Source: Hadesarchaea archaeon
GTDB taxonomy: Archaea; Hadarchaeota; Hadarchaeia; Hadarchaeales; Hadarchaeaceae
Assembly (NCBI GenBank): GCA_030601675.1
Contig: JAUWBN010000006.1
Coordinates: 1-47,684 of the forward strand
Reading direction: 5' to 3'
Length of the DNA: 47,684 nt
A program made the translations under genes and the position numbers. This document shows positions 966 to 11,434 of the stretch, piece by piece. The notes beneath the pieces are model-generated. The model had not been told where the DNA came from. It worked only from the letters and a program-made list of their open reading frames with translations, and did not search any database. Position 1 is the first letter of the stretch, and each line of letters starts with the position of its first letter.

Positions 966-2825
966 TTGCGGATCCTGTTGATCCACGCCGATCATCTCGA
1001 ATTCGAGGCGAAGCAGCGCACCCCCGTGGCTGAGGAGGTGCCTGCCGAGCAGCGCTCGGGGCGCCTCGAGGAAGTGCTCGTTGTCTTCACCGCTGCGGAG
1101 GAGGAGGATGAGGGGCTGGCCGATGCGATAGTCAAAAATGCCGCCCGAGAGATCGCCGACGTCGCCCGGAAAGTCGAGGCCAAACGAGTGGCGCTTTACC
1201 CATATGCTCACTTAAGCTCCTCGCTCGCTCCCCCAAAGGTCGCCATCGGGCTGCTCGACGCCACCCGCGACGCTCTGCGCGAGCTGGGTTTAGAAGTCCA
1301 CCGCCTGCCTTTCGGCTGGTATAAGGCTTTCAGGCTCAGCTGCAAGGGACATCCGCTGTCCGAGCTCTCTCGAACGATAACCGCCGAGGCCGGCGAGGAA
1401 GCGGTGGCCGAAGAGGCGAAGGCCCCAAGTGAGTACATCATTTTGACGCCCGAGGGAAAGGAACACGAACTCGACTTGAAAAATGTTGACGCGTGCGAGG
1501 GGCTCCGCGGCCAGTCCCTGCTCCGCCAGTTCGTGCTGAGTGAGGAGCTGGGGCAGAAGCCCGGTGAGGAGCCCGCGCACCTGAAACTCATGCGTCGCCT
1601 AGAGCTCGTCGACTACGAGCCCGCCAGCGATGCCGGGCACTTCCGCTTCTACCCGAATGGAGCGCTCATCAAGGGACTGCTCGAGGATCTCGCGGTTCAA
1701 CTCGCGGACGAAATTGGCGCGAGCCGCATCGAGACGCCCGTGCTATACAAGGCGGACGAACCCGACATAGCCGAGCAAGCGGCACGCTTCTACCAGAAGA
1801 ATTACAAAATCAAGCTGCCTAACCGCACCCTGCTCCTTCGGTTCGCCGGCGACTTCGGCCTTTTCAAGCTCATGAAGCAAACCGGGATGAGCTACAAACA
1901 GATGCCCGTTCGAATATTTGAACTCTCCCCATCCTACCGTCTCGAGCAGAGTGGCGAATGCGTCGGGCTGAAGCGGCTCCGCGCCTTCACCATGCCGGAC
2001 GTGCACTGCTTCTGCCGCGACCTGAAGCAGGGGCTCGAGGAGTACGAGCGGTTGTTCATGGCGTACACGAAGCTGCAGGGCGTGATGGGGCTCGACTACG
2101 TGGTCGCCTTCCGCATGGTCAAGGAATTCTACGAGCAGAACCGAGCCTTCCTCGCCCGCCTCCTAAGGCTCGTCAAGCGTCCCGCGCTCATTGAGCTCCT
2201 GCCAGAGCGAAAGCACTACTGGGTGATGAAGCACGAATTTCAGGTGATCGACTCGGTGGGGGGGAATGCCCAGTTGGCGACGGTTCAGCTCGACCTCGAG
2301 GACTCGGAGCGCTACGGCATCCTCTACGTGGACGAGCGCGGGGAGAGACGCGGGTGCATAATTTTACACTCCTCGATGGGCTCGATTGAGCGCTGGATCT
2401 ACGCGGTGCTCGAGGAGGCCGCAAAATCGCAAAAGGCCGGGAAGGTGCCGAGCATACCGCTCTGGCTCTCGCCCACTCAGGTCAGGCTCGTGCCCGTGAA
2501 CGAGCGGCATCTAAAATTCTGCCTCAAACTTTCAGACTCGCTTGAGAAGGCCAACGCCAGGGTCGATGTCGACGACCGGAGTGAGACCGTTGCGAAGCGA
2601 GTGCGCGATGCCGAGCGCGAGTGGATCCCATACGTGATTGTCATTGGGGACAAAGAGGTGAAAACGAAAAAGCTGCCAGCTAGGGCTCGAGGGGTGAAGA
2701 AACTCAAAACTTTGACAACGAAGGGGTTAATCGCGGAAATCGAACGAAAGACCAAGGGGATGCCCTACAGACCGCTCGCCTTGCCTCGCTTGCTTTCGAT
2801 GCGCCCGATTTTTGTCGGTAGTTAG
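966..2825 (+). CDS. thrS: Threonyl-tRNA synthetase, archaeal type with N-terminal editing domain
   Basis: N-terminus MRILLIHADHLEFEAK is typical of archaeal ThrRS; class II core FRFYPNGALIKGLLEDL and C-terminal anticodon-binding domain (VRLVPVNERHLKF). TTG start; TATA-like tttattaa about 30 nt upstream. Confidence 0.93.
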   Translation: MRILLIHADHLEFEAKQRTPVAEEVPAEQRSGRLEEVLVVFTAAEEEDEGLADAIVKNAAREIADVARKVEAKRVALYPYAHLSSSLAPPKVAIGLLDATRDALRELGLEVHRLPFGWYKAFRLSCKGHPLSELSRTITAEAGEEAVAEEAKAPSEYIILTPEGKEHELDLKNVDACEGLRGQSLLRQFVLSEELGQKPGEEPAHLKLMRRLELVDYEPASDAGHFRFYPNGALIKGLLEDLAVQLADEIGASRIETPVLYKADEPDIAEQAARFYQKNYKIKLPNRTLLLRFAGDFGLFKLMKQTGMSYKQMPVRIFELSPSYRLEQSGECVGLKRLRAFTMPDVHCFCRDLKQGLEEYERLFMAYTKLQGVMGLDYVVAFRMVKEFYEQNRAFLARLLRLVKRPALIELLPERKHYWVMKHEFQVIDSVGGNAQLATVQLDLEDSERYGILYVDERGERRGCIILHSSMGSIERWIYAVLEEAAKSQKAGKVPSIPLWLSPTQVRLVPVNERHLKFCLKLSDSLEKANARVDVDDRSETVAKRVRDAEREWIPYVIVIGDKEVKTKKLPARARGVKKLKTLTTKGLIAEIERKTKGMPYRPLALPRLLSMRPIFVGS

Positions 2826-2900
2826 GAACATTTAGCCATTAAGAAGAAAATCAGATTTCTTGGTTAAAATTTAACTTTTTAAAGATACTTTTTTATTTAA

Positions 2901-3119
2901 CTACTTTCTTTTTTTAGATTTTTTATACTCCTCTCCCCTTAACGTCCTTCCTACATGCGGCTTGTGTTCCCTATGTTTTAAAAGAGAAAGAAAAATAAAT
3001 AACCCAATAATAAATACAACAAATATAATTACCCCCTTTCCTATATCCTCCCAGGGAATATCTGTTGATTGAGCAGCCATAACTGCAAGAGATAAGAATT
3101 TCATCTTACTACCATTCAT
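2901..3119 (-). CDS. Small single-pass membrane protein (hypothetical)
   Basis: 72-aa ORF with one clear TM helix (GVIIFVVFIIGLFIFLSLL) and a basic tail, in an AT-rich interval. Confidence 0.45.
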   Translation of the reverse strand: MNGSKMKFLSLAVMAAQSTDIPWEDIGKGVIIFVVFIIGLFIFLSLLKHREHKPHVGRTLRGEEYKKSKKRK

Positions 3120-3271
3120 GAGTATCCTGGGTACATTATAAATTCCTTTAATTCTCTCTGGTTTTGTTGAAAGGCTAGATAATCATAAGCGCAAAGGGGA
3201 GACCTATCAAGGCCCCAAGTGTTATTGCACAAGTACCAAAATAATAGCTTCCACCGCTTTAAAAACACGAG

Positions 3272-4126
3272 CTACTCGAAGATCCAAAGTTCACCCTCGT
3301 ATTTCCGCCCTTCGAATACTGTACCCTTCGGCAGGCGCTTCACCCCACGCTTCGAGAGGTGCTCGATCAGCGTGCGGTTGAGCGCCTCGAGCGATCGATC
3401 CCCCTTCAGCCACCCGAGTGGAACGTCGACGTGCATAGGCCTGGCTGAGAGGACATGTCGGGTCGTCTTGTGGGCGAACACGTTACCGGAGAGGGCTGCC
3501 TCGATTACCTCGTCCTTCCTCACCCCGGGCACCATCAGCGCGGCGGCAACTTCCCCGGAGCGTGCCCGCTGCACCGCGTCGACCTCGTTCTCGTAGTCCA
3601 CCCTCAGCCCCTCCTCCCTCAGGGTGCGCTCGATCCGCTTCGCCCATGCGTAGCTCTCCCTTATCTCACCGCTTTTCCCCTTCAGCAAGTAGCAGGCATC
3701 TCTGGTGAGCAGGGCCGCGGATGCTCGGCGCTCCTCGAGAGCTCGGGATGACGTTTCCGGCGGGGCGGATTCGACGCCTAGTCCCGGCAGCCTGAATAGG
3801 TCCAGGAGCTTCGGTTCACCCACTTCTCCCCGGATGGTGCGGTACCAACAACCGACGCGCACGTTTGGGTTTCGATGATCGACCAAGCAGACGGGCAGGT
3901 ATCTGCAGCCCAGCTTCCTGAGCGCGGCGACTCGGTGCATGCCGTCGAGCACGACCAGCGTGTTGGAGTCGATGATGGCCGGGTCCCTGACCGCGCCGCT
4001 CGACTTTATCTCGTCGACGAGTTCATCGAGCAGCTCGGGGATGATCTCCTCGTGGATGCGAACTTTGCTCAGGTCCTTGAGCCCAAGTTGGAGCTCGAGT
4101 CCGGGTGCAGCTAACTTGAACAGCAA
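3272..4126 (-). CDS. ParB/SerK-like protein (free-serine-kinase-type ParB domain)
   Basis: ParB-like VVLDGMHRVAALRKLG and C-terminal KTTRHVLSARPMHVDVPLGWL resemble the archaeal SerK family. Confidence 0.65.
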   Translation of the reverse strand: MLFKLAAPGLELQLGLKDLSKVRIHEEIIPELLDELVDEIKSSGAVRDPAIIDSNTLVVLDGMHRVAALRKLGCRYLPVCLVDHRNPNVRVGCWYRTIRGEVGEPKLLDLFRLPGLGVESAPPETSSRALEERRASAALLTRDACYLLKGKSGEIRESYAWAKRIERTLREEGLRVDYENEVDAVQRARSGEVAAALMVPGVRKDEVIEAALSGNVFAHKTTRHVLSARPMHVDVPLGWLKGDRSLEALNRTLIEHLSKRGVKRLPKGTVFEGRKYEGELWIFE

Positions 4127-4307
4127 ATCATCGCCAATAGCACAGGGGCGTCGAGTTTCAAAAAGCTAACGTGAGGGGTCAAATTATTTTTTACCAACGA
4201 TTATTCGGTTTCCGGCTTCTGTGATCCACTTTTTCTTCATGTATTTCGGTAATACCTATCGCCGATATTTTTAGCGCCGTAGACCTCGCTCACCGCAGCT
4301 TCCAAGT

Positions 4308-5240
4308 TCAATCCCTGATTCCCGCCTCGGTTATCTGAAACGTCGCGCTCTCGGGAGGCAGCCCCGGGTGGTCTATGAGCTTGGCGACCCGGGTGTTCGC
4401 CTTGCTCTTCCGCAGGTAGACCCGCGCGGTCATCGCATGGCCCAGCACGTGACCCCCGATGGGCTTGGTCGGGTCGCCGAAGAACATGTCCGGCCTCGAC
4501 ATCACCTGGTTCGTCACGAAGACCGCGAGGTCGTTCAGCTCCGAAAGCCTGTGCAGTGCCGCGATGTGGCGTCCCAGCTTCTGCTGCCGCTCGGCAAGCG
4601 CGCCCCGCCCGCAGTACTCGGTCCGGAAGAGCGAGGTGAGCGAGTCCACCACGACGAGTTTCACATCGTTCTCCTTCGCCATCTCCTGGACCTTCTCGGC
4701 CAAGAGCATCTGGTGGTCAGTCGTGTGCGCTCGGGCGACGTAGATGTTTTCAAGCACCCCCTCGGGGTCCAGCCCCACCGCGCGCGCCATCTGCGCAAGT
4801 CGCTCGGGCCTGAATGTGTTTTCAGTGTCGATGTAAATTGCCTTTGCCCCCAGCCCTCCCTGCTCCGGGGGCTGCTGGACGTTGACGCAGAGCTGGTGGG
4901 CTATCTGGGACTTCCCCGATCCGAACTCGCCGAATGTTTCTGTCACGCCTTGGGTCTCGGCCCCTCCCCCGATTATCTTGTCGAGCGCCGGGCTCCCCGT
5001 CGAGATGTAGCCGAGGTGCTTCCGCCGCTCCATCACCTCGCTTGCCTTCTCATACCCCATTTTCGCTGCATCGCGAGCGGCGTTTATCACCTTCACCGCC
5101 ACCCGCATCCCCATCTCGGCGGCCTCCATCAGCTCACCCGTGGTGGCTACGGCCAAGCTCTCCAACGAGTCGTAACCGGCCGAGTGAAGCTTCTCCGCGA
5201 TCGCAGGCCCGATCCCCTCAAGATCCTCAAATTCGGTCAT
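4308..5240 (-). CDS. radA: DNA repair and recombination protein RadA
   Basis: HhH N-terminus ([17 protein letters not shown]), Walker [33 protein letters not shown]. Probable ATG at 5240 preceded by ggaggtgg; the track start at 5303 is an over-extension. Confidence 0.95.
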
Positions 5241-5310
5241 TTGACCACCTCCGTTCGACCCTCTCGCACCTGCGTTTAAGCGGATTGACCCCAGAGAGGT
5301 CACCGAAAGT

Positions 5311-5321
5311 AATTTATAAAG
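5311..5321 (+). promoter_or_regulatory. Archaeal TATA-like box for the LSm gene
   Basis: aatttataaag about 30-35 nt upstream of the LSm ATG at 5352, between the divergent radA and LSm genes. Confidence 0.5.
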
Positions 5322-5351
5322 GGGGTCGGACGAGCGTCAATTGGGCATTTG

Positions 5352-5594
5352 ATGGAAAAGGGAGCACCAGCAGAACCAGAAAAGGAAACGCAGGTCGACC
5401 TCGGGAAGCTACTGAATGTAACTGTGGTGGTTAGCGCGAAGGACGGCCGGAGATTTCGTGGCAAGCTGACTCAATACGACGCCCACATGAACCTAGTGCT
5501 GGAGGAGGTCGAGGAACTCCCGCAGGAGGGCCCCGCCGCCAAGCATAAGCTCGTTCTGATAAAGGGTGGAAATGTCTCATCGATCTCGGTCTAA
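5352..5594 (+). CDS. Sm-like (LSm/SmAP) RNA-binding protein
   Basis: Sm1/Sm2 motifs: VVVSAKDGRRFRGKLTQYDAHMNLVLEEVEE...LVLIKGGNVSSIS. Confidence 0.92.
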   Translation: MEKGAPAEPEKETQVDLGKLLNVTVVVSAKDGRRFRGKLTQYDAHMNLVLEEVEELPQEGPAAKHKLVLIKGGNVSSISV

Positions 5595-5860
5595 ACGGGC
5601 TTGACGTATTCCATCGCCTTAAATCCCTCGAGCACTTTTTGTCCGCTTTCGGTCAGCTTGTATTTTTCCTCTATCTCAGCGATCAGGCCACGATCGACGA
5701 GGGCTCGAAGATGGCTCTTCACCGGCCACCAGTCCTCGGCGCCGAAGAGTTCGCGGAGTTCCCGGACCCTCGTACTCCCCCTGCCGGCGATGAGTAGGAA
5801 GACCTTCCCCACGCCTTCTTCATCATCCTTAAGCCAGTTGATATCCTCGGTGACCCCCAT
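5591..5860 (-). CDS. Winged-helix DNA-binding protein
   Basis: VFLLIAGRGSTRVRELRELFG...LRALVDRGLIAEIEEKYKLTESGQKVLEGF wHTH pattern. Confidence 0.6.
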   Translation of the reverse strand: MGVTEDINWLKDDEEGVGKVFLLIAGRGSTRVRELRELFGAEDWWPVKSHLRALVDRGLIAEIEEKYKLTESGQKVLEGFKAMEYVKPV

Positions 5861-5884
5861 CGCGTTCCCCCACGAAAGATGGAG

Positions 5885-7651
5885 CTATCCGAGATAAAAG
5901 TACTCGCCCCTCTCCTTCTGCTCCCGATCGAGACCGCTCCCCGGCTTGTTCGCCCGGGGCCTACCTGTCTGGGGGTCCCGCCTGAAGGTGACCCCCACCT
6001 CACGCAGGAACATATTCATCCCCTCGCGCATCCCGAGGGGGCCGTGAGTTTTGCCCGCTCGGCTTGGTTCGCCCGCGAAGACGAGCAAGCGGTCGGAGAT
6101 GAAGTCAACGCTGAGCACGTCATGATCCACGACAAACGCCGCGACCTCACGCTTCTCGATCACCCGCCTTATCACGCGCGCCATGCCCAAGCGCTGCTCG
6201 ACGTCGAGGTAAGCGCTGGGTTCGTCGATCAAGTAGACATCAGCTGGTTGCCCCAAGCACGCGGCGATCGCGACGTGCTGGAGCTCGCCCCCGCTCAGCT
6301 CCTCCAACCTCCGCTCGAGCAGGGGCCTCACCTCGAGCGGCTGCAGGATTTCGGGATCGAAGGTCGGATTGAACTCGCCGAGCAACTTGTGCAGCCAGGC
6401 CTCCACGGTGCCGTCGAACTCGAGCTTGAGGTACTGTGACTTGTGGGCGACCGCGAGCTTGAACTCGAGCCGCCCGACCGTAGGTTTGAGCTCCCCCGCA
6501 AGCATTCGCACGAAGGTGGTTTTACCTATGGCGTTCGGCCCCACCACCCCAACTACCTCGGCGGCGTAAACGCTGCCCGGTGAGACCTCGAGCTCGAAGC
6601 CCTTGAAACGTTTCTTGAGCTTGGGGTAGCTGAACATCGCCCGCCCAGCGACACGAGCTTTTGACGGAGGCCGAACTTCGAAGCGGATGGATTCCCGCCT
6701 GAACCTCACGTTCTCCTCGCGCAGGTAGCCATCGAGAAAAACATTTATCCCAACCCTGACCCCCCGGGGGGAGGAGATGACACCGTAGGCCCTAGGTTGG
6801 CCGTAAAGGACGTGGACGTAATCACACATGTAGTCGAGCATCGCGAGGTCATGCTCCACGACTAGCACGGCTTTCCCAGCCCCGGCGAGCCCCTGGATGA
6901 CGCGCGCTGCATTTAGGCGCTGGTAGACATCGAGGTGCGAGCTCGGTTCATCGAAGTAATAAATATCCGCCTCCCGCGCGGCGGTAGCGGCTATCGCCAG
7001 GCGCTGGAGCTCACCCCCGCTGAGGAGCTTGATGTTGCGGTCGAGGACCTCGTTCAGTTCAAGCGCTCTGGCCAGCTCCCTCGCCTCGCCCCGTTCATCC
7101 ACCTTCGCGAGGAGCGCACCGACCTCTCCTCGCACCACTTTGGGAACCCCATCGATGGCTTGAGGCTTGTAAGCCGTTTTTATTCGCCCGATTCGAGCGA
7201 AGTAGGCCTGTAACTCGGAACCCTTGAAGAACTCGTTCAGGGCCCTCGGCGGCGCTGTTTCCAGCGAGCTCAAGTTTGGCCTGAGCCTCCCAGCCAAGAT
7301 CTCAAGCGCGGTTGTCTTGCCCGTTCCGTTCTGCCCGACAAGCCCCGTGACCTTGCCCGCCCTGGGGATGGGTAATTCATAGAGGGCAAATCCGTTGGGG
7401 CCGTAGCGGTGGATGCAGCGCCCTTCGAGCTCATGAGGCAGATTGATGATCGAGATTGCGCGGAACGGGCACTTGTGGACGCAAATGCCGCAGCCCGTAC
7501 ACAGCTCCTCGGAAATCGTTGGCCCGCCCGTTCGCTCGTCGATGACCACCGTCTCTTCGCCGGTTCGAACCCCCGGACAGTAACGGTAGCACTCGAGCGA
7601 GCATCGATTCGGCTGGCAGGAGTCCCGATCAAGAACGGCGATCCTCGGCAT
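5885..7651 (-). CDS. Ribosome recycling factor ABCE1/Rli1
   Basis: N-terminal 4Fe-4S motifs (CTGCGICVHKCPF), two ABC domains (GQNGTGKTT, GPNAIGKTT) with LSGGELQ signatures. Confidence 0.95.
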   Translation of the reverse strand: MPRIAVLDRDSCQPNRCSLECYRYCPGVRTGEETVVIDERTGGPTISEELCTGCGICVHKCPFRAISIINLPHELEGRCIHRYGPNGFALYELPIPRAGKVTGLVGQNGTGKTTALEILAGRLRPNLSSLETAPPRALNEFFKGSELQAYFARIGRIKTAYKPQAIDGVPKVVRGEVGALLAKVDERGEARELARALELNEVLDRNIKLLSGGELQRLAIAATAAREADIYYFDEPSSHLDVYQRLNAARVIQGLAGAGKAVLVVEHDLAMLDYMCDYVHVLYGQPRAYGVISSPRGVRVGINVFLDGYLREENVRFRRESIRFEVRPPSKARVAGRAMFSYPKLKKRFKGFELEVSPGSVYAAEVVGVVGPNAIGKTTFVRMLAGELKPTVGRLEFKLAVAHKSQYLKLEFDGTVEAWLHKLLGEFNPTFDPEILQPLEVRPLLERRLEELSGGELQHVAIAACLGQPADVYLIDEPSAYLDVEQRLGMARVIRRVIEKREVAAFVVDHDVLSVDFISDRLLVFAGEPSRAGKTHGPLGMREGMNMFLREVGVTFRRDPQTGRPRANKPGSGLDREQKERGEYFYLG

Positions 7652-7724
7652 TTTTTCACCTGTTCTTAGAGTTTCTCTGGGTTAAGCTTTAAAAGCTCCT
7701 CGTGTAAGCAAAATAGGTGAATGT

Positions 7725-7991
7725 TTGCGCGGGTGGTTGATTCTAACGGGGGCGGTCCTCCTCATCATCGTGTTGCCGATCATCGCCCTCACGTACAGCG
7801 GCTGGGTGCGGTTGGTAGGGCAGATCGTGCTCAGCATCTTGCTCATCGTGGCCTTAATCGGCAGTGGCCTTTTCGGCTACATTTGTCTCAGGGCTCAGGC
7901 CAAGAAGTGGGGAGCTGGCCTCTTCATAATCGCCGCGTTATGTATTGTTGTCATTTACTGGGTGTGGGCCGGGCATCTGCCACTTCTCTAG
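7725..7991 (+). CDS. Small multi-pass membrane protein (hypothetical)
   Basis: 88 aa with three hydrophobic helices. Confidence 0.55.
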   Translation: MRGWLILTGAVLLIIVLPIIALTYSGWVRLVGQIVLSILLIVALIGSGLFGYICLRAQAKKWGAGLFIIAALCIVVIYWVWAGHLPLL

Positions 7992-8470
7992 ACCCCGCCG
8001 CTCGGCACGATCTCGTAGAGCTTGCGGAGGAGATCCCTCAGCGCTTGGGTGTGGTCGAAGATTTTTTCCCTGCCACTCAGAGAACGAGTCGAGTATAGCA
8101 CTCGCACAGGCATTATCCGAGTGAGCACGATTGCCACTGACCCAAGCACCAAGCTCATCGCCTGTGTCCCTCCGCTGTAGTTGATCGTCACCTCGTCGTC
8201 GGGCTTTATCTTTTCCAAGATCTTGCTCAGAGCATCGCCTATGGATTCGGGATCAAAGGGGTCGCACCGATATAGACTCAGCTTGCATCGTACGCGGCGA
8301 GCGGTCTCCTTCAACACCGTGGAGTTGGGCTTGGTGTAGCCGTGCTCGCTCGCGATGTAGTTCAGGCCGTCTTCCGACGCTACAACGTGACACGCCTTCG
8401 GCTTCTGGGTGAGCATGATGTGCTCGACGGGACGAGGGTGGAATCCCAGCGTTAAAATAGCAACTTTCAT
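7988..8470 (-). CDS. Stand-alone CARF/Rossmann-like domain protein
   Basis: MKVAILTLGFHPRPV N-terminal strand and VTINYSGGTQAMSLVLGSVAIV, which resembles the (S/T)GGTxxM motif of CARF domains. Confidence 0.6.
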   Translation of the reverse strand: MKVAILTLGFHPRPVEHIMLTQKPKACHVVASEDGLNYIASEHGYTKPNSTVLKETARRVRCKLSLYRCDPFDPESIGDALSKILEKIKPDDEVTINYSGGTQAMSLVLGSVAIVLTRIMPVRVLYSTRSLSGREKIFDHTQALRDLLRKLYEIVPSGGV

Positions 8471-8477
8471 TTAACCC

Positions 8478-8732
8478 CTACTCCGGCTTCTGCCACTGTT
8501 CCGCGTTGAGCTGTTTCGTTCGTTCTTGGAGCTTCATCATTATAAAATCCCTCGCCTGCCTTCGTTCGAGCTCACTTTTGAAGGCATCGGAGAGGCGCTC
8601 GAGCCTGGGTTTCGCGAACATCTCGAATGCCAGCTCGATGTCGCGGTCGGTGAGCGGGGAATCCTTCACCTTGTCGGCGAGCAGCTCGGTGGCCTTTTGA
8701 ACTATCCAGTCGAGCTCCGATCGTTCGACCAT
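8478..8732 (-). CDS. Small all-helical protein, co-oriented 7 nt upstream of the CARF-like gene
   Basis: 84 aa, charged helical sequence; ORF spacing suggests an operon with 7988..8470. Confidence 0.5.
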   Translation of the reverse strand: MVERSELDWIVQKATELLADKVKDSPLTDRDIELAFEMFAKPRLERLSDAFKSELERRQARDFIMMKLQERTKQLNAEQWQKPE

Positions 8733-8787
8733 TTTATCACGTCAAATTCTTTAAGTTCAGTGGAGGCTTAAATGCTTAAGGGTTCGG

Positions 8788-9309
8788 ATGGACGTTTTTG
8801 AAGCGATTAAGGGCAGGCGGAGCGTGCGCGAATTTGAGTCCACGCCGGTCAAGGAGAAGGATCTGGAAAAAATCCTTGACGCCGCTCGCTGGGCCCCTAG
8901 TGCCGGGCATTGCCAGCCTCTCGAACTAGTCGTCGTGAAAGACCAAGCACAAAAAGAGCGATTGGCGCGTGCAGCGCTCGGGCAGACATTCATCGCGGAG
9001 GCACCGGTAGCCATCGTCGTGTGCACAAACGTCGCCCGTACCTCCCGACGCTACGGCAGGCGTGGCGAGGAGCTCTATTGCATCCAGGATACTGCAGCCG
9101 CGACACAAAATATTCATCTAGCCGCTTGCGCACTCGGCTACGCGACGTGCTGGGTGGGGGCATTCGATGAGGATGCTGTCGCTGAGGTGATCAAAGCTCC
9201 TGCGGGTGTGAGGCCCGTCGCCATCGTCCCGCTCGGCAGGCCAGCTGAGAAACCAAGTCCCCCGCAGCGTATGCCGCTGAACAAGATCGTGCGTGAGGAT
9301 GAATTTTAA
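8788..9309 (+). CDS. Nitroreductase family protein
   Basis: KGRRSVREFESTPV...ILDAARWAPSAGHCQPLELVVV...AATQNIHLAACALGYATCWVG. Confidence 0.9.
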   Translation: MDVFEAIKGRRSVREFESTPVKEKDLEKILDAARWAPSAGHCQPLELVVVKDQAQKERLARAALGQTFIAEAPVAIVVCTNVARTSRRYGRRGEELYCIQDTAAATQNIHLAACALGYATCWVGAFDEDAVAEVIKAPAGVRPVAIVPLGRPAEKPSPPQRMPLNKIVREDEF

Positions 9310-10217
9310 CCGAGCAACCTAGCGCCTATTCGGTCCACGCTTGCGACGATGACAGCACCGGGCTCAAGAAACTCGAGAAATACTCGCCTCACTCGTTCAA
9401 GCTTTCCTTCCCTCACCAACGCAAATGTCGCTCTCCCCAGCATCACCTGGCTTGCTCCAATTGCACCCGCCTTCGAAACAGCTTCGGTCAACGCACGAAG
9501 CTCATCGTCTAAAAGCCCGAGGCCCTCCGCAAATTCACGCGATACTTGCATAAAATTTCGAGGGGTGGGTTTTTCTAACAATTTTTTCAGGGCCAAGCCA
9601 CCGAGTCGCTTCGAACGCTCGCGAAATCCCTCCTCGCGCAAAAGCTTCGCCGTCGGTAACCCGGCGAAGGTGCCGCAAACCACCTTTACACCTTTCGGGA
9701 GGTGAATTTGCTCCCACCTGCCGTGTGGGGGGGCACCTGGCTCCAGCCCGATCACCAGCCCGCCGAGCGCCTGCGCCCCCACGTCGCCGAGCCCCGTGCG
9801 ACAGGTCACTTCAGCGACGTGCGCAATCGCCGCAATCCTTTCGCGCGCTAAGCGCAAACCCAGAGCATGGGAGAGGGCTAAGGCGGCGCCGAATGCCCCC
9901 GCACCGCTCGCCCCATACCCAGCGCCTATCGGCACCTTGCAGGAGTGGGCTACCACGACTTCAAGCGGTTCATGTACTAGGCCCAAGAGATTCTCGACGG
10001 CTGTCAAAGTTGTCTTTGCCCCGGGTGCTCGCTCGTTATTTATGTGAACACTTATGCTGGTGCGTGCGGCTGGCTCAACTTTAACTTTCGTGAGCACGCC
10101 GGCATCGATGCAGGGGCCGCAGTTGCGCGAGCCCTTTCGTTCGAATTCGTGGAACTCGTCAAACACTTGAAAAAAACCCGAGATGTGGGCTGGGACGAAA
10201 GCCGATGCCTTCCGCAT
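9306..10217 (-). CDS. GHMP kinase, probable archaeal pantoate kinase
   Basis: AFVPAHISGFFQV and KVPIGAGYGASGAGAFGAALALS; start/stop overlap TAATG with coaBC and next to PPAT. Confidence 0.82.
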   Translation of the reverse strand: MRKASAFVPAHISGFFQVFDEFHEFERKGSRNCGPCIDAGVLTKVKVEPAARTSISVHINNERAPGAKTTLTAVENLLGLVHEPLEVVVAHSCKVPIGAGYGASGAGAFGAALALSHALGLRLARERIAAIAHVAEVTCRTGLGDVGAQALGGLVIGLEPGAPPHGRWEQIHLPKGVKVVCGTFAGLPTAKLLREEGFRERSKRLGGLALKKLLEKPTPRNFMQVSREFAEGLGLLDDELRALTEAVSKAGAIGASQVMLGRATFALVREGKLERVRRVFLEFLEPGAVIVASVDRIGARLLG

Positions 10218-11434
10218 TAGCGACGCCCTCGAAGCCCCGCCATCACAGCATCTAGAATTGCCCTCGCGATCTCAACCTTCGTCGCGCGCATCGGTTTAGA
10301 GCCGGAGGGTGTCACGATCACGACTTCGTTGGTGTCGGTGCCAAATCCAGCTCCCGATCTAGCTACATCATTTGCCACGACCATATCGAGCCCCTCGGCC
10401 AGCTTGTCTTTCGCCGCTTCTAGGAGCTCCTCATCGCTCACGTCGTACTCCGCCTTGAACCCCACCACAAAAGCATCTGGCGCGAGTTTTCGGACCCCAT
10501 CGAGCACACGGGGCGCTGACACCAGCTTGAGCGTCACCGGCTCGGAATGCTTAAGCTTCCGCTTCGCTGGTCGCTCGACCGCAAAATCCTGTGCGGCCGC
10601 GGTCGAAACAATGATATCGTGTCGCGACCCAAGCTCGCGCCTGAATGCGTCATGCATCTCCGCCGTTGTTTGCACTCGGACGAGTTTGATGTTGGCTGGA
10701 GGGGTCTCGTTTCCAGGTCCATAAATCAACGTGACCTCGGCGCCGCGAGCGGCCGCGGCTCGGGCCACAGCGATGCCCATCTTGCCCGAACTTCGATTTG
10801 TGATCAGCTTGATCGGGTCGATGGGCTCGATCGTTGGACCAGCGGTGACAAGCGCGCGCATGCCCTGCATGTCACGAGGGCCTAGCAATCCGATGACAAA
10901 ACTTACGATCTCCTGAACCTCCGGCAGCTTGGCCCTACCCTCCTCGAGGCGGGGCTCCAAAACATGAACGTCGGCCGATCGCAGACGTGCGAGGTTCTCT
11001 TTAAGCAATTTGTGCTGGTACATCGACCCGTGCATCGCCGGTACCACGACAACCGGCTTACCCAAACCAAGCGCCACTGAAACGACCGAGGTAACTGGTG
11101 TATCGTCAATCGCGCATGCAACCTTGCTCAACGTGTTTGCGGTAGTTGGTGCGGTGAGTACCAAATCAGTCCACTGCGCGAGTTCGACGTGTTCCAGCTT
11201 ACCCGTCAGCTCGGCGATGACCTCATTGCCCGTCGCCCAGTGCATGAGCTGGGGCGTTATCAACTGGGTTGCGCGAGGCGTCATCACAACCCTCACGTCG
11301 GCCCCGCGGCGCATGAGTTCTCGAGCCAGCTCGGGGCACTTTACCGCTGCAACACTTCCCGTAATGCACAGCACGATTTTTCGTTCGGCTAACTCGGTGC
11401 CCTTTGTGCCGTGGATATCATGGGAGGGGTGCAT
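10217..11434 (-). CDS. coaBC: Bifunctional phosphopantothenoylcysteine decarboxylase / phosphopantothenate-cysteine ligase
   Basis: KIVLCITGSVAAVKCPELARELMRRG, APTTANTLSKVACAIDDT, TAGPTIEPIDPIKLITNRSSGKMGIAVA. Confidence 0.93.
   Translation of the reverse strand: MHPSHDIHGTKGTELAERKIVLCITGSVAAVKCPELARELMRRGADVRVVMTPRATQLITPQLMHWATGNEVIAELTGKLEHVELAQWTDLVLTAPTTANTLSKVACAIDDTPVTSVVSVALGLGKPVVVVPAMHGSMYQHKLLKENLARLRSADVHVLEPRLEEGRAKLPEVQEIVSFVIGLLGPRDMQGMRALVTAGPTIEPIDPIKLITNRSSGKMGIAVARAAAARGAEVTLIYGPGNETPPANIKLVRVQTTAEMHDAFRRELGSRHDIIVSTAAAQDFAVERPAKRKLKHSEPVTLKLVSAPRVLDGVRKLAPDAFVVGFKAEYDVSDEELLEAAKDKLAEGLDMVVANDVARSGAGFGTDTNEVVIVTPSGSKPMRATKVEIARAILDAVMAGLRGRR

Follow-up and report, generated by a model that had tools for sequence, protein, structure and literature searches.

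A family of stand-alone CARF-domain proteins in Hadarchaeota, carried by genomes without detectable type III CRISPR genes

The window analysed here, a stretch of 47,684 nucleotides, is an entire contig (G000:C35) of a Hadesarchaeal MAG of 0.94 Mb and 86% completeness. The features that concern us lie close together:

7725..7991, forward strand: gene of an 88-aa predicted membrane protein without a Pfam family (reading frame, neighbourhoods)
7988..8470, reverse strand: gene of a single-domain CARF protein of 160 aa, group A of a Hadesarchaeal CARF-only family (reading frame, PADLOC, AlphaFold, Foldseek, conservation)
8471..8496, reverse strand: junction of the 84-aa and CARF genes, cagaagccggagTAGgggttaaATG (direct sequence reading)
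8478..8732, reverse strand: gene of an 84-aa three-helix protein of no known family (reading frame, AlphaFold, neighbourhoods)
8733..8787, no strand: divergent intergenic stretch of 55 nt between the 84-aa/CARF pair (reverse) and a nitroreductase gene (forward) (sequence only)

The 160-aa reading frame begins with MKVAILTLGF and contains the motif VTINYSGGTQAM, as the first-pass annotation of this DNA had described. The 84-aa reading frame runs in the same direction 7 nt upstream and is predicted by AlphaFold to form three helices (pLDDT 89.2), in agreement with the all-helical neighbour noted there. SD-like GGAG/GGGG sequences in the junction cagaagccggagTAGgggttaaATG surround the stop codon of the 84-aa gene, just 5' of the CARF start, an arrangement consistent with translational coupling, and A+T-rich TTAAA-type stretches in the divergent intergenic region could serve the pair as an archaeal TATA element. 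The membrane-protein gene on the other side is convergent with the CARF gene, with a 4-nt tail-to-tail overlap, and is conserved at this place even where CARF is missing.

The 160-aa protein had been called CARF-like from its motif, and profile and structure searches bear this out. PADLOC's CARF-only profile (PDLC01794, 'CARF1--CARF') matches residues 1-153 of the window copy with E=3e-34; it is matched at E<=1e-5 by all 25 relatives examined and is the best PADLOC match for each of the four copies whose matches were listed completely, the remaining listed matches being CARF-type models as well. In Pfam, four CARF families match the protein, every one below threshold. An AlphaFold model built from three input sequences (pLDDT 83.6, pTM 0.80) has the strand (E) and helix (H) order E-H-E-H-H-E-H-E-H-E-E-H, and a Foldseek search of the PDB with this model returned CARF chains only among the best 40 (Csm6, Can2, Cam1, a Csx1-Crn2 fusion and Csa3), with E values from 1.5e-7 to 5.9e-4 and modest TM-scores of 0.43-0.63, rather than the unrelated fold that would have counted against the call. 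Judged from this profile-level similarity to CARF families and the Rossmann-like CARF fold of the predicted structure, the 160-aa protein is a CARF domain. We also considered an SDR-like dehydrogenase, but it has only weak, local profile matches (E about 0.001 to 0.2) to its name, and the structure search puts CARF far ahead. A BFVD search with the CARF model gave three matches at E<=0.001, all to phage proteins with scant description; a viral or plasmid origin of the family was rejected, as no relative was found in IMG/VR and none in plasmids.

In the AlphaFold model the CARF fold takes up the whole chain, and the protein would therefore have no effector domain. The lack of an HTH, HEPN or nuclease extension, another point of the first-pass annotation, thus stands. 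There is no fusion to a HEPN RNase of the kind that defines Csm6 and Csx1, and no HEPN match in the 84-aa protein either; likewise the C-terminal winged HTH that characterises Csa3 and HFX_2341 is absent from the CARF protein, and the 84-aa protein has no HTH match. The domain type (CARF-only, CARF1) is already in the PADLOC catalogue, so the domain family is not new. The literature that we searched holds no mention of CARF together with Hadarchaeota, and what appears to be unreported is the expansion of paralogues in stable housekeeping loci, the occurrence in carriers without detectable type III genes, and the uniform loss of a basic residue.

In the window copy the conserved strand-end residues are L8-G9-x-x-P12, S32, C69-D70-x-F72, N97-Y98-S99-G100-G101-T102-Q103, Y126 and D139-H140, and among the CARF copies L8, G9, P12, C69, F72, S76, N97, G101, G110 and Y126 are invariant. 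Most of the invariant residues fall, in the alignment and the AlphaFold model, at the C-terminal ends of the parallel strands, where Rossmann proteins bind their ligands. After strand 4, CARF proteins carry the superfamily signature [DN]x[ST]xxx[RK] (PMC4012209). The start of this signature is kept, N97 being invariant and position 99 being S or T in 21 of 25 copies (A in the other four), but position 103, the [RK] of the signature, is Q in 6/6 group A copies and A in 19/19 others; with the basic residue absent in 25/25, the full signature is found in none. In a pairwise alignment, a Can2 structure has a Lys at the corresponding position. The absence of the basic residue does not exclude membership in the superfamily, because the RtcR and RV2818 CARFs also mostly lack it, with other ligands possible (PMC4012209). 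The motif I region reads T-L-G-F-H-P in group A and G-L-G-[ED]-x-P in the other copies, and the GTS of Crn1 is seen in none; where Crn1 has its motif II Arg/Lys, all 25 have Q103 or A103.

Of 101 related genomes, 16 contain relatives of the CARF protein, and these all belong to one family of the phylum; the carriers account for 16 of the 28 phylum genomes, and the genome of the window has three copies (contigs C35, C2 and C17). When 297 genomes were searched with a profile, no more than two further proteins came up, both of them distant and 402 aa long; the gene of the one whose locus was read adjoins a RAMP-like gene, in what resembles a type III Csm6 locus. In the tree the family splits into distinct paralogue clades, several of which have a chromosomal neighbourhood of their own that persists from genus to genus. 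Group A, to which the window copy belongs, has its own conserved locus and is found at one and the same position in deep branches of the tree of the flanking housekeeping genes (G000/G006, G014/G018/G021, G009, G019), in keeping with an ancestral gene that was cleanly lost several times; the patchy loss shows that the CARF protein is dispensable. The group B gene immediately precedes a threonine synthase-like gene (thrC) in 5/5 loci (L046, L047, L049, L051, L052), with gaps of 6-80 nt, and group C is near ThiI and hexapeptide-transferase genes. Further paralogues are near GatD/GatE, PEPCK/Lrp or MinD-DUF835; in two genera the group F gene comes after the genes of a MinD/ParA-type ATPase and a DUF835 protein (L034:996-2909; L054:16361-19336). 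The genes that we take to be thrC, ThiI, GatD and GatE were named by sequence recognition, with no Pfam test. An HD-domain protein is also encoded close to the group B CARF/thrC loci.

Where dS is not saturated, pairwise dN/dS is about 0.10-0.16 for group A CARF and 0.04-0.20 for the 84-aa reading frame, and both genes are under purifying selection. The first-pass annotation had proposed that they form a pair, and had suggested its conservation in related genomes as a check. The two are adjacent and co-directional in 7/7 group A orthologues from several genera, the spacing varying between an overlap of 4 nt and a gap of 7 nt, and together they are a real operon-like unit of which CARF is the optional part. 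The observation named there as a refutation, CARF homologues that never adjoin the 84-aa gene, is thus not what the related genomes show. The 84-aa gene itself is present in 24 of the 28 phylum genomes and conserved across the Hadarchaeal families f1-f3, CARF present or not; at 16/16 CARF-negative loci read it sits at the same ancestral place by nitroreductase, pantoate kinase and CoaBC genes with no CARF neighbour, and none of the CARF paralogues outside group A has a copy beside it. The 84-aa gene is thus older and wider in distribution than CARF. Its product has no Pfam match, no Foldseek match below E=1 and no match to HEPN, toxin or DNA-binding families, and we saw no residue in it that tracks the presence of CARF.

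No CRISPR-like direct repeats were found in the window, and on its contig the whole-genome searches found neither Cas1 nor a Cas10 palm, a RAMP or DevR. The first-pass remark that the window holds no CRISPR locus therefore holds, and can be extended to the genome, in which no RAMP, Cas10 or DevR/Cas7 was found. The only Cas1 found in this genome (3709-4713) accompanies a family B DNA polymerase (6510-8465) on another contig (G000:C8, about 1030-10996; L123), where the two are flanked by inverted repeats of roughly 150 nt, 94% complementary and 9.65 kb apart. This locus is casposon-like and not a CRISPR locus; no obvious target-site duplication was found at the element. Some carriers do have CRISPR: in G019, an array of 19 repeats lies in a region with Cas1 and Cas7. 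The Cas10 palm model matched in three genomes (G015, G023 and G027), an independent RAMP model picked out the same three, and none of them has the CARF family. Conversely, the Cas10 palm or a type III RAMP was found in 0/16 CARF carriers, all of the genomes being incomplete MAGs (carriers 56-92%) in which a Cas10 could be missed in a single genome. The probability of such non-overlap (16 and 3 of 28) by chance is about 0.07 (hypergeometric), and we therefore claim no avoidance; the carriers simply keep CARF without a detectable source of cOA.

Other sources of cyclic nucleotides were considered. A CD-NTase (CBASS) was rejected as a source of cyclic oligonucleotides: the SMODS matches in the phylum are mostly proteins of 467-511 aa, the size of the archaeal CCA-adding enzyme, archaeal control genomes match the model too, and there is no match in the genome of the window. 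That genome does have a diadenylate cyclase gene, as have 19 others of the phylum, some of them without CARF, so its co-occurrence is not specific to CARF and is permissive evidence only. The group A loci that we read are housekeeping clusters and not defence islands.

Comparison with known systems places the family among CARF proteins that differ in what is attached to them and in what surrounds them. The PADLOC CARF1--CARF profile has the same CARF-only architecture, but it is a defence-library model given without taxa, ligand or function, whereas the Hadesarchaeal genes lie in housekeeping loci of genomes that have no detectable type III genes. The closest solved structures are CARF domains of Csm6/Csx1 (CARF1/Crf1_Csm6; Foldseek E 1.5e-7, TM about 0.6), which share the NxS/TGGT-type strand-end motif; the Hadesarchaeal proteins differ in having no HEPN RNase, no Cas10 partner, and Q or A in place of the motif II basic residue. 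As a Cas10-independent CARF sensor the nearest archaeal precedent is HFX_2341 (DUF6293; PF19810), a haloarchaeal CARF-like regulator conserved in species without CRISPR, whose host has no homologue of the type III cyclase and for which c-di-AMP has been suggested as ligand (PMC11434293). The Pfam N-domain of HFX_2341 is matched by 15/25 members at E<=0.01, below the family cut-off. HFX_2341, however, has 308 aa and a C-terminal DNA-binding domain, and the Hadesarchaeal CARF proteins have none; a search for a CARF-HTH protein of this type elsewhere in the phylum gave sub-threshold matches only, all to the same CARF-only genes. RtcR does not respond to oligoadenylates, and its CARF binds RtcA/RtcB in trans (PMC9650030). 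Its CARF resembles the Hadesarchaeal one in missing the basic residue after strand 4, but in RtcR it is joined to a sigma-54 AAA+ activator and the gene is linked with rtcBA, a gene context not seen for the Hadesarchaeal CARF. Finally, Crn1 proteins (Sso2081, Sso1393) are likewise small CARF proteins without a fused nuclease. Their distinguishing features are absent here (the GTS motif I, GRK motif II and helical lid of Sso2081; the wHTH of Sso1393), and Crn1 is found in type III loci.

The reading that we prefer, and to which we give an even chance, is that of a stand-alone CARF sensor that is independent of Cas10, works outside type III CRISPR and acts in trans. By analogy with other CARF domains, the protein would form a homodimer and bind its ligand in a pocket where the parallel strands end. 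This ligand is unlikely to be an oligoadenylate made by Cas10, because the basic residue that holds the phosphate is absent in every member and the carriers have no detectable Cas10. Some other nucleotide-type signal seems a better candidate, such as c-di-AMP or, as has been proposed for RtcR, the ends of RNA or short oligonucleotides. Since CARF carries no effector domain, its output would have to be in trans, presumably by binding to other proteins; in group A one candidate for such a contact is the co-translated three-helix protein, which must, however, also be able to work alone. Of the roles suggested in the first-pass annotation, a nucleotide sensor unconnected with CRISPR is accordingly the one that the missing basic residue and the lack of a detectable cOA source favour. 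The presence of signalling or metabolic genes next to paralogues (MinD-DUF835, histidine kinase/response regulator, thrC) also speaks for a sensor. Among the points against it, the best structural matches are to cOA-binding Csm6, the clade name CARF1 is catalogued in a library of defence systems, and the protein is dispensable.

Several other explanations have to be weighed. The 84-aa protein might be a dedicated effector of CARF that is released when ligand binds, a split pair that the first-pass annotation had raised. Tight gene coupling in every group A orthologue (gap -4 to +7 nt) and purifying selection on both genes are in its favour, and the adjacency on which it was built is real. An obligate sensor/effector pair is nevertheless unlikely, because the putative effector gene is older and more widespread than CARF and stands free of it in the 16 other loci read; the remaining paralogues do without such a partner, no residue covaries with CARF, and nothing in the three-helix protein resembles a HEPN domain, a toxin or a DNA-binding protein. 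We therefore rate the split pair as rather unlikely. A small enzyme on the CARF/Rossmann scaffold, in which Cys69 with Asp70, Ser76 and Asn97 would process a nucleotide or dinucleotide, could account for the invariance of C69, F72, S76 and N97 in 25 copies despite deep paralogue divergence, and the stretch CDxFDPxSV is similar to the motif found at a strand end in Rossmann enzymes of the SDR type. However, that resemblance amounts to the weak, local SDR matches that CARF far outranks, and the residues form no known catalytic set, so that an enzyme seems quite unlikely.

A stand-alone ring nuclease, also among the original suggestions, would bind and cleave cyclic tetra-adenylate and so switch off type III signalling. 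The size and CARF-only architecture are similar to those of Crn1, self-limiting Csm6 proteins are among the top structural matches, and in the Crf1_Csm6 family one protein is both sensor and ring nuclease. Catalysis and binding by Sso2081 (Crn1) rely on the GTS of motif I and the Arg/Lys of motif II (PMC10018336), both of which are missing in all 25 copies; moreover, the AlphaFold model has no helical lid insert, the genes lie in housekeeping clusters rather than defence islands, and no carrier has a detectable Cas10 or RAMP. These observations disfavour the ring nuclease, and we regard it as improbable. Least probable of all is that the protein was once an accessory of a type III system, has persisted by inertia and is now in decay. 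In keeping with such a relic, the family is patchily distributed, has been cleanly lost several times, is represented by fragments in two genomes (G003, G005) and has a frame-broken tandem copy in G017, but strong purifying selection, pocket residues invariant across paralogues and the parallel retention of several paralogue clades make decay highly improbable.

The Cas10-independent sensor could be one part of something larger, in which the chromosomal multi-paralogue family would constitute a general, non-immune nucleotide-signalling network, each paralogue serving a different process in response to a ligand not made by Cas10, for example c-di-AMP. We think this unlikely, if somewhat less so than the alternatives above. 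To our knowledge, few archaeal c-di-AMP receptors have been described. CARF domains have been treated almost entirely as receptors for the alarm molecules of type III CRISPR, and a vertically kept, expanded CARF-only family without detectable type III genes is a natural test of CARF sensing outside or before CRISPR; the protein is small, soluble and probably thermostable, which should make ligand screening easy.

Individual members of the family show some irregularities. CARF-only genes occur in tandem at L042:9537-10493 (G017:C13) and L043:2508-3450 (G011:C18), the second G017 copy being split over two frames. C-terminal CARF fragments of 44 residues at G003:C130:1618-1749 and G005:C5:7179-7310 are probable gene remnants, and the group A orthologue of G018 (L060:1578-2061, G018:C85) is divided between two frames by a frameshift that reflects either a pseudogene or a sequencing error. 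At one of the two group F loci, a HEPN and nucleotidyltransferase (MNT-type) pair that is absent from the other lies immediately downstream of the CARF-only gene (L054:15318-16218, G017:C35), and the DUF835 protein of this locus carries a HisKA_7TM domain. At L053:8836-12137 (G017:C49), a CARF-only gene is convergent with a two-component cluster of a histidine kinase and response regulators.
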